Shown here piece after piece: positions 60,126 through 64,000 of a DNA stretch of 64,000 bases. Under the pieces are notes generated by a model that was not told the origin of the DNA, searched no databases, and was given only the letters and a program-made list of their open reading frames with translations. Source of the stretch: Gallionella sp. (lineage in GTDB: Bacteria; Pseudomonadota; Gammaproteobacteria; Burkholderiales; Gallionellaceae); contig JAQTTY010000008.1 in assembly GCA_028710525.1 (NCBI GenBank), forward strand, positions 88,136-152,135, in the 5' to 3' direction. Numbering within the stretch: position 1 is the first letter of the stretch; every line of letters starts with the position of its first letter. The position numbers were made by a program, and so were the translations under genes.

Positions 60126-60799
60126 TTAGCTTTAACCAAGTTCGCAAGCGTTACCCCGGCGGCTATGAAGCGCTCAGTAATGTCTCGTTTGAAATCGCGA
60201 CTGGTGAAATGGTTTTTCTAACCGGCCACTCGGGTGCGGGCAAAAGCACGCTGCTTAAGCTGGTCGCTGGAATCGAGCGTCCTAATTCCGGCAGCGTGCT
60301 GGTCAACAATCAGAACGTGGGGGTACTTAAGTCGTCTGCATTGCCCTTTCTTAGACGCAATCTGGGCATCATCTTTCAGGACCACAAGCTGCTGTTCGAC
60401 AGAAGCGTATTCGACAACGTGATCCTACCTTTGCAAATCTGCGGCTTCGATCACCGCGAGAGTGGTAAGCGTGTGCGTGCAGCTTTGGACAAGGTCGGCT
60501 TACTCAAACGCGAGAAGGCTAACCCCATCGCATTGTCAGGTGGTGAGCAACAGCGTCTGTGTATCGCACGTGCCATCGTCAATCGTCCCTCCATATTGCT
60601 GGCCGACGAACCCACCGGCAATCTGGATGCCGACTATGCACAAGACATCATGGATATCTTCAAATCTTTCCATCAAGTTGGCGTGACGTTGCTCATCTCC
60701 ACTCACGATGCAGGTGTCTTGCAAGATAACGACAAGATTCGTGTGCTCAATCTAAAACAGGGGGTTCTGCAAACCCCTACTCAGGTGGTGTCGTCATGA
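60122..60799 (+). CDS. ftsE: Cell division ATP-binding protein FtsE
   Basis: A 225-residue ABC ATPase: Walker [14 protein letters not shown], signature [14 protein letters not shown], Walker [12 protein letters not shown], His in STHDAG. With FtsX it controls septal peptidoglycan hydrolases. It overlaps ftsX by four bases. Confidence 0.98.
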
Positions 60800-61704
60800 G
60801 ACAGGGCTACGTACAGCATTTGAGTGTGATACGCACGGTCTTGCGCCGCATCTTCAGCCCGCCCCTCGCTGGGCTGCTCAATATTCTGGTAATCGGTATC
60901 GCGCTTAGCCTGCCCGCGGGGGTATATGTGCTGCTGCAGAATGCGCATGGACTGGTCGATGAACTTTCAGGTACACCTCAGATTAGTCTTTTTCTTAGTT
61001 TGGATGCTAAATCAGACGATATCGATAAGTTGCGTAAACAACTTGCTCAGAATTCAGATATTGCATCGATAGACTTTGTCTCTCGGGACGCAGCATTGCA
61101 AAACCTCAAGCAATCAACGGGGTTAGAGGATGTCATCGGCGGGTTAGAAAAGAATCCCCTACCCGATGCCTTCATCATCCATCCCAAAGCAAAGGGTGCG
61201 TCTACTCTAGAGGACTTGCGCTCTTCGCTCAGCAACCTACCCAAAGTAGACCTGGCACAATTGGATTCAGCATGGGCCTACAAATTGGAAGCACTGTTAC
61301 GCTTCGCTAATTTGGCAGTATTGATTTTGGCCAGCTTGCTCAGCTTGGCGCTGATTGCCATCACCTTCAACACCATACGTTTGCAGATACTCACTCAGCG
61401 TGATGAGATTGAGGTTGCCAAACTGATCGGTGCTTCTGACGGCTTCATTCGTCGCCCCTTCCTGTATTTCGGTGCTTTACAGGGGCTGATGGGCGGCATT
61501 GCTGCTTACCTCATCATCACCATCAGCTTGCTGCTGCTAAATGAACCGCTGCATGCACTATCACAGCTCTATGCTAGTCAGTTCTCACTAAAATCTCTAG
61601 GCTGGGGCGACAGCTTAGCTTTACTTATGTTCTCTCTCTATTTAGGCTGGCTGGGTGCTTGGCTATCCGTTGCACGCCATCTCTCCCTGATAGAGCCTCG
61701 CTAA
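60796..61704 (+). CDS. ftsX: Cell division membrane protein FtsX
   Basis: A 302-residue permease-like protein with four helices (~30-52, ~170-195, ~225-245, ~270-290) and a large periplasmic loop after the first helix (GTPQISLFLSLDAKSDDIDKL). It transmits FtsE ATP cycles to amidase activators. Confidence 0.97.
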   Translation: MRQGYVQHLSVIRTVLRRIFSPPLAGLLNILVIGIALSLPAGVYVLLQNAHGLVDELSGTPQISLFLSLDAKSDDIDKLRKQLAQNSDIASIDFVSRDAALQNLKQSTGLEDVIGGLEKNPLPDAFIIHPKAKGASTLEDLRSSLSNLPKVDLAQLDSAWAYKLEALLRFANLAVLILASLLSLALIAITFNTIRLQILTQRDEIEVAKLIGASDGFIRRPFLYFGALQGLMGGIAAYLIITISLLLLNEPLHALSQLYASQFSLKSLGWGDSLALLMFSLYLGWLGAWLSVARHLSLIEPR

Positions 61705-61824: not shown

Positions 61825-63873
61825 CTAATTCTTAATCCTATACCCCATCGCTCGATAGCCTCGTTGCCGCTTCTCCCACATGCGCATCAATGCAGGGTGT
61901 CCATAATCCACAAAGTCAACAACGCGCACATCCGTCTTGCTTGCATGTTCGCGGTGCAAACGCCCTGCATATTGCTGCAAGGTTCCTTTCCATGAAACTG
62001 GCATCGCAAGAATCAGCGTATCCAGCGGCGGATGATCAAATCCTTCACCAACCAGCTTGCCCGTAGCAAGTAAGACACGAGGAGCATCCGGTGGCAACTC
62101 ATTGAGAGTTTCAATCAGTGTAGACCGCTGCTTCTTGGACATCCGTCCATGCAATATGAAAAGCGACTGAACTTTGCTTTCTAGGGTGGCCGCAATTGCA
62201 TCCAAGTGTTCGTTGCGTTCAGTTAACACCAGCAACTTACGCCCTTGGTTATATGCACTTTCGATTTCTTCAACGATCATATCTGTTCGAGCTGGATCGG
62301 TTGCGATGTGGCGGAACACGTCCTGAATCTTTGCATCCGTGGGCAGATCGATGTGCCTATTTATGGAATACGGCACCACTTCAAGATCATGTGGCGCGCT
62401 CTCAGGTTTGGCTGCCGTATAACGGATAGGTCCACATTGCATAAAAATGATCGCTTGCTGTCCATCACGCCGAAACGGTGTGGCCGTTAGACCCAAGACG
62501 TATTTTGCCTTGACGCGTTTTAAGATTGCGTCAAAAGAAGTTGCGCCGATGTGATGGCACTCATCGACGATTACATGCCCGTAGTCTTCAACTAGCGCAT
62601 TGATTTCATTTTTACGTGACAACGACTGCATCACGGCAATATCGATGATGCCAGTTGGTTTGGCTTTTCCGCCGCCAATCGTACCCACTATCCCTTTGCC
62701 GACACCTAGAAATGATTGCAACCGCTCCTGCCATTGCTTAAGCAATTCCGTTCGGTGCACTAAAACCAAGGTATTCACACCACGCTTCGCAATCATCGCC
62801 GCTGCGAGCACGGTTTTTCCAAAGGCAGTGGGCGCGCACAGAACACCTGCATCATGATGCAACATTCCTGCTGCTGCCGACTCTTGATCCAGTCGAAGTG
62901 TCCCCGCAAATGCAACATCGATGGATTTCCCAGTGAATCGTTCATCGCGCAAATCACACTGGATCCCATTTTCTTGAAGTAATGCTTGAGCGGCATCCAT
63001 GCAGCCACGTGGCAAACCAATATGAAGCGGGAAGTTTTCTGCTGAACATATAACGCGCGGCGTGTCCCAAACCGACATGCGCATAGCCTGATTTTTATAA
63101 AACTCGGGATTCTGAAAAGCTGCCAACCGAATCAGGCGATTTGCTAATGCTTGCGGCAACTGCGCTTTTTCAAAATAGATGAGGTTGGACAGGACTACCG
63201 TGAGCGAGTCAGGCATGCTGCCGACCAGCTTCTTGCTCACTGGCGCGGTACGCTTCCACGGCTCCTTATGGTCCTCCTCGTCTATAAAAGTCACATCCAG
63301 TGGATGTACTGCGCCAGTCGCGCGGAATATGGTGGGTTCAATATCTTCAGCAGACATGGGCTGGATTGAAGATAAGAAATCCCATTGCTCTGGATATGGT
63401 TGCAACGAATCATCGACGAACACACTAAAACCGTTCTCTCGGGGTTTCTTTTGTAATGGCAGGGCAATCAAATTGCCGAACCCTCCTTTGGGCATAGTGT
63501 CCTGATTAGGGAATAACCGATCATAGGAAGCAAGCTTCAATTGCCGAGTGCGCGCACAGGTGTGGCTGATGATGGCGGTACCTAATTTTCTAGCATCGCG
63601 TGCTGGAACATTGCGTTCAAAAAATACCCAGGCATGCGCACCATTACCCGAGCGTGATATTTCTAATGCGACCGGCACGCCAAGCTCACGACAGGATTGT
63701 ACAAACGCCTTGGCATCATCCCTCCATTCCGCCTCATCAAAATCGACAGCAAGAAAGTAACAGGTGTCGTCAGTAAGTAAGGGAAACACGCCTACTGTGT
63801 GATCACCAGTCAGGTGGTTATAAATAATGCTGTCTGTTACCGGCCTCAACAGACGATTATTACAGTCACCACA
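61825..63873 (-). pseudogene. AEP primase - SF2 helicase (TOTE-type conflict gene), 5' truncated
   Basis: A ~680-residue remnant. The N-terminal half is an archaeo-eukaryotic-primase-like domain with FLAVDFDEAEW (metal DxD-type), SGNGAHAWVFFE and KGGFGNLIALPLQ. The C-terminal half is a DEAD/DEAH helicase with APTAFGKTVLAAAM, VIVDECHH, GLTATPFRRDG and LQQYAGRLHR. The track starts at TTG 63849, but the frame continues upstream as CGDCNNRLL, a cysteine motif that family members have after ~100 further residues. It then meets TGA/TAG exactly at an apparent IS end. The gene thus seems to have lost its 5' part, though the rest could lie beyond the insertion. Confidence 0.8.
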
Positions 63874-63876
63874 TCA

Positions 63877-64000
63877 CTAGTGTCCGGTTAAGAATCGAAT
63901 AGATTCAGTTGGTTGCTGAAATCGGTGTTTGTTGCCTCGCCACGGATGCCCTGCAAGGCTTGTTGTATGGGCATTTTCTCGAACAGAGTGACCGACAGAA
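63877..64000 (-). mobile_element. IS4-family insertion sequence, end only
   Basis: The window edge holds one end of an element. On the minus strand the last 36 codons of a transposase-like frame (63888-64000, stop TAA) read VTLFEKMPIQQALQG...SNQLNLFDS, a C-terminus I associate with IS4-family transposases. Beyond its stop comes TTAACCGGACAC, a plausible terminal inverted repeat, ending where the primase-helicase reading frame resumes. Identification rests on this short tail; the other end is outside the window. Confidence 0.7.

Follow-up and report, generated by a model that had tools for sequence, protein, structure and literature searches.

A stand-alone primase-helicase gene at the ftsX-rpoH locus of a Gallionella genome is split by an IS4-family insertion sequence

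The closest described systems to the gene analyzed here are the TOTE conflict system, which comprises TPR, OB, TBP and Effector components (PMC12458937), and the CRISPR-associated CAPP set, among whose non-CRISPR relatives the helicase-type archaeo-eukaryotic primases (AEPs) are the commonest architecture and typically reside on mobile elements (PMC8211822). Our literature search found no assigned role for helicase-type primases outside CRISPR. We analyzed a 64,000-nucleotide stretch of DNA (the window) from Gallionella sp., which corresponds to bases 88136-152135 of contig C15 in a genome of 2.83 Mb (33 contigs, 99.96% complete) and whose right edge coincides with the contig end. At this edge lies a primase-helicase gene that is broken by an insertion sequence (IS), and the rest of the gene is found at the start of another contig of the same genome, C18. 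The features concerned are:

61825..63874, minus strand: C-terminal part of the primase-helicase gene, with the AEP catalytic core and the SF2 (XPB-like) helicase, running from CGD in the CGDC motif up to the stop codon; it contains one copy of the target duplication.
63849, minus strand: apparent TTG start, an internal codon and not the natural start; relatives begin about 110 residues further upstream.
63875..64000, no strand assigned: one end of the IS4-family element, with the terminal inverted repeat CACTAGTGTCCGGTTAA; the other end is C18 bases 1-127.
63888..63998, minus strand: transposase C-terminus (last 36 codons and the stop), in the same direction as the broken gene.
63866..63874, no strand assigned: 9-bp target-site duplication TCACCACAT, with its second copy at C18 bases 128-136 (L011).
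60796..61704, plus strand: ftsX, left neighbour of the broken gene; ancestrally it adjoins rpoH, a gene found on C18.

We propose that a primase-helicase gene, accessory and spread by horizontal transfer, was acquired between ftsX and rpoH, with or beside a DS8-type anti-phage gene that is now truncated. Its single-chain product combines a four-cysteine N-terminus, a primase-polymerase core of the archaeo-eukaryotic type and a superfamily 2 helicase resembling XPB. An IS4-family element some 1.3 kb long, which had multiplied recently, would then have landed within the CGDC-motif codons of this primase-helicase gene and duplicated 9 bp, leaving a 116-codon N-terminal frame (107 codons of its own and nine from the IS) together with a C-terminal piece without a proper start or the cysteine cluster. 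We assign a probability of about 93% to this overall account, in which a horizontally gained primase-helicase at ftsX-rpoH was recently split by an IS4-family insertion and is very probably inactive.

The gene carries Pfam matches to AEP-TOTE, the DNA primase small subunit, ResIII/DEAD and Helicase_C, and its structure matches connect the primase part to two solved CAPP-type primases (7nqd and 7nqf) and the helicase part to XPB-type ATPases. An earlier note on this DNA, made from the letters of the window, had called the gene TOTE-like. This label holds for the primase part, which strongly matches the AEP-TOTE domain (PF22548), but it fails as the name of a system: no TBP match was found in this 99.96% complete genome, no TPR, OB or TBP genes were seen beside the gene (reading frames on both sides, with Pfam and NCBIfam searches on the nearest ones only), and the upstream genes of its relatives are toxin-antitoxin or other mobile genes. 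We therefore dropped membership of a TOTE system and keep the term as a Pfam domain name only. Partner nuclease genes had also been expected beyond the gene; checking both of its sides revealed none, the left neighbours being ftsYEX and those on the C18 side a DS8 C-terminal fragment followed by rpoH. By comparison, the NCBIfam model PrimPol_Msp (CRISPR-associated primase-polymerase type A1) matches the AEP core, below its curated cut-off, and the PADLOC models for CAS-associated PrimPol match the gene. Like the non-CRISPR relatives of CAPP_A (PMC8211822), it carries its AEP core ahead of a helicase domain and is located outside CRISPR operons, and its own family, like the helicase-type relatives, often occurs on mobile elements. 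It differs from CAPP in its four-cysteine N-terminal region, in being a split copy, and in its genome, in which no Cas1 was found, and we dropped a CRISPR association on this last ground. A CAPP_A-type AEP core joined to a helicase in a genome without Cas1 makes the gene a relative of the CRISPR-associated set and not a member of it, and we class it as a stand-alone relative, outside CRISPR, of the CAPP_A helicase-type enzymes, which suits the protein better than the TOTE label. Judging from what is known of the family, the helicase of the intact protein would open or track along DNA and its primase domain would prime and copy strands, in conflict with mobile DNA or in its upkeep. The gene itself is probably a mobile-DNA-conflict gene.

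The split is visible on both contigs. Read from 61825, the minus-strand frame extends beyond the TTG (63849) through CGDCNNRLL before TAG and TGA close it, both at the border of the window's last 126 bases, where the IS end begins. The earlier note had likewise read the frame through CGDCNNRLL up to a break at an IS-like end. It had also predicted about 100 missing N-terminal codons to the right of the contig end, and 107 such codons are present at the start of C18, within a reading frame of 116 amino acids whose 107 gene residues end in KIKCGD and whose other nine are read from the IS. An AEP-TOTE profile search of the genome gave two matches, covering positions 48-228 (window) and 2-56 (C18:115-282, minus strand), and the two gene pieces score 264 and 72 bits against a cut-off of 27; in the Pfam domain annotation of the window piece, the AEP-TOTE match spans positions 50-228. 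Homologues have their start some 107 codons before the break. In an alignment with 14 homologues, the C18 piece stops at KCGD and the window piece starts at GDC; these residues overlap because the target bases are duplicated, and the gene and the IS share nothing beyond this duplication. When the flanks are joined, the frame across the junction is open for 604 codons over the stretch tested. None of the intact relatives aligned starts at the TTG, which had been named as the pattern that would speak against a disruption. A lack of transposase or inverted repeat past the window edge had been named likewise; the element has both. Since the window pieces differ at only 3 out of 255 family-invariant columns, as intact relatives do, and the IS ends are identical, the insertion is recent, as the earlier note had supposed.

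The identity of the element follows from its ends and its relatives. The 36-residue transposase end, which reads TDFSNQLNLFDS up to its stop, lies in a frame other than that of the primase-helicase, and this piece, ending in FSNQLNLFDS, matches the C-terminus of an IS4-family transposase from a genome of the same genus (L232), in line with the IS4-family insertion proposed from the window. We took the element to begin at CACTAGTG; the adjoining nine bases are TCACCACAT on both C15 and C18, which supplies the short target duplication that had been anticipated, and CACTAGTGTCCGGTTAA forms a 17-bp perfect inverted repeat at both IS ends. C15 stops 126 bp into the element, and these last 126 bases recur at five other contig ends with 99-100% identity, giving six ends of this type that are identical over 122 bp. 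The opposite end is found at C18:1-127 and at four more contig ends, all five of them identical over 122 bp. Five of the six ends of the C15 type pair uniquely, one-to-one, with the five opposite ends by identical 9-bp duplications (chance match of nine bases ~4e-6 per pair). Among these five duplication-matched copies, the window site alone gives an open frame of at least 90 codons across the junction, and the other four insertions fall outside long frames. The closest complete element (L232:2296-3620) is 1,325 bp long and has a 9-bp duplication of its own; its transposase (L232:2438-3607) has 389 amino acids with DUF4372 and DDE_Tnp_1 domains, and scores 289 bits against NCBIfam transpos_IS4_1 (cut-off 115). 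A DDE_Tnp_1 search of the Gallionella genome gave no match, so that the element was identified through relatives; its body is absent from the assembly, as expected of a collapsed repeat, and the junction is accordingly deduced from two contig ends and not read through. The element thus resembles IS4-family insertion sequences in its terminal inverted repeat, its 9-bp duplication and, in the closest complete copy, its DUF4372 and DDE transposase, and differs in that its own body is unassembled, the family being assigned through its own 36 C-terminal codons and L232. From this closest relative, its length would be about 1.3 kb.

The earlier note had proposed looking for intact alleles in sister strains. 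We found the AEP-TOTE domain in 18 genomes besides the one analyzed (150 genomes searched), and 11 out of 20 loci examined look complete; contig ends cut some of the rest. One intact relative is the Gallionella copy at L153:3213-5582 (JADGRL010000065). At least 5 of the 20 look broken, by frame changes (L054 and L056), truncation (L057), reduction to an N-terminal stub (L061) or a large internal gap (L062). It could be argued from this that a cost of the gene, or its toxicity to its own cell, gave the insertion an advantage, and that the window insertion is the sole gene hit among five resolved IS copies points the same way. However, selection cannot be read from a single event, a mobile gene that is dispensable would leave the same pattern if lost neutrally, and frameshifts in draft assemblies may be false, so that we consider a selective cause doubtful. 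The family is also found on plasmids. In two loci (L104 and L105) the homologue lies directly downstream of a resolvase, and L104 has a Tn3-family transposase on its other side, so that in L104 a transposon probably carries the gene as cargo. The copies in E. coli (L106 and L107) adjoin genes for AlpA, YfjI and inovirus-type Gp2. A phage origin was not supported, as the phage matches listed span only the helicase half, with 25-29% identity.

The position of the insertion within the protein bears on whether any activity is left. Ahead of the catalytic core are four cysteines (87, 96, 103 and 106 in L045 protein numbering), each of which is present in 68 out of 76 wider homologues; that the same number of homologues, 8, lack a cysteine at each position suggests that a metal site is kept or lost as a unit, and the four-cysteine N-terminal region is probably zinc-binding. 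The catalytic Asp pair, the SRS..H motif and the Walker/helicase motifs are likewise kept across the family. The element was inserted between the third and fourth cysteines, leaving three in the N-terminal piece and none of the four in the C-terminal piece as read from the TTG. Because the insertion parts this conserved cluster, the gene is very probably inactive, with no working enzyme made. The C-terminal piece could in principle still be produced as a shortened working helicase-primase, either by a start at the internal TTG (63849) or through a promoter in the IS end, given that it is open for 674 codons, keeps its catalytic motifs and has hardly drifted. We regard this as improbable, since two in-frame stops lie ahead of it, the cysteine cluster and N-terminus that it has lost are present in all intact relatives aligned, and its low drift is equally explained by a recent insertion. 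The locus would be a clear-cut example of how a recent insertion inactivates a mobile gene of the conflict type, at a site defined to the base and lying inside a probable metal-binding cluster. The event is of an ordinary kind, in a little-studied gene family.

The surroundings of the two contig ends place the gene at a housekeeping locus. C15 ends with ftsY-ftsE-ftsX followed by the broken gene, and C18 starts with the N-terminal piece, followed by a 222-amino-acid frame and rpoH. In several genomes of the same genus, ftsX and rpoH are neighbours, with a spacing of 68 bp in L126 and L128 and of 425-485 bp in L117, L125 and L127, which supports the adjacency of C15 and C18 independently. Further genomes hold different genes between the two, indicating that the junction is conserved and accepts cargo. 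We suggest that ftsX-rpoH gathers and sheds such conflict-type genes. An exact duplication in an otherwise intact frame would in principle permit the element to act as a reversible switch, whose precise exit would bring back the gene in some cells of the population, yet there is no sign of excision and all intact alleles found belong to other species, and we consider such a switch very improbable. That the split is an assembly artefact, a chimaeric contig end or misattached repeat with the chromosomal gene intact, is hardly credible: both junctions are indeed contig ends, with the other side invisible from the window alone, but the 9-bp duplication with exact frame continuity, the four further IS copies that behave alike and the ftsX-rpoH order all agree, and a contig that stops 125-127 bp into a repeat is usual assembler behaviour. 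With the absent N-terminal part, the target duplication and intact relatives all located, the IS4-family insertion can be regarded as secure, and the earlier note was right in its reading of the sequence; its system label and its expectation of partner nucleases were not borne out.

The 222-amino-acid frame (L011:637-1305 on C18, minus strand) lies 41 bp from the start of rpoH. It matches positions 838-994, the last 157, of the 994-position DS8 anti-phage model NF053861 (3e-35), with 121 bits against a full-length cut-off of 790. It is alike to DS8 in this C-terminal match and differs in that the first ~840 residues are absent, and it looks like the remnant of a defence gene of about 1000 amino acids. 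A search of the 150 genomes found no close relatives of it, the best hits having 21-25% identity.

In relatives, the gene immediately ahead of an intact primase-helicase copy is often a toxin-antitoxin gene, whose family varies (AbiEii, HigBA, ParE, HipA, TumE, PIN or YhcG), as seen across L044, L047, L052, L053, L055, L058 and L060 together with 80 further loci (L150-L229); no such cassette lies beside the gene in the window. Counting the nearest open reading frames only, Pfam matches among 81 upstream genes included AbiEii (7), ParE toxin (5), HTH_37 (HigA-type; 5), Fic (2), and HipA, HigB, AbiEi_2 and YhcG (one each), and those among 68 downstream genes included Fic (3), PIN (2) and Phd/YefM (1). 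Without Fic, toxin-antitoxin components make up 20 out of 81 upstream versus 3 out of 68 downstream genes (Fisher p ~5e-4), a value to be read as indicative, since the loci are related and the families were chosen after inspection. Individual toxin-antitoxin cassettes were confirmed. Eleven upstream genes form one cluster that encodes an uncharacterized protein, without a Pfam or NCBIfam match, and most of them overlap the primase-helicase start by 8 bp:

L100, L101, L102, L151, L152, L155, L159, L160, L168, L184 and L189, upstream of the primase-helicase: gene for the ~181-amino-acid protein.

This protein is a possible dedicated partner of the primase-helicase. We tentatively speculate, while thinking it unlikely on present evidence, that the intact family works as a module serving defence or a mobile element, made up of a primase-helicase with exchangeable toxin-antitoxin cassettes or the 181-residue partner. 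In such a module, sensing or processing of foreign DNA would fall to the helicase-primase, and the role of effector or addiction part to the cassette. Our literature search returned nothing direct on a toxin-antitoxin link. The recurrence of a stand-alone primase-helicase behind varied toxin-antitoxin families would matter if the pairing is functional.

In addition, four more contig joins in this assembly (C23/C31, C29/C10, C22/C23 and C15/C1) are implied where the 9-bp duplications beside two IS ends agree. A second, related IS, with the inverted repeat AGTAGTGTCCGGTTAAAAG, also breaks the assembly, at contig ends C22R, C16L, C11, C8 and C16R.
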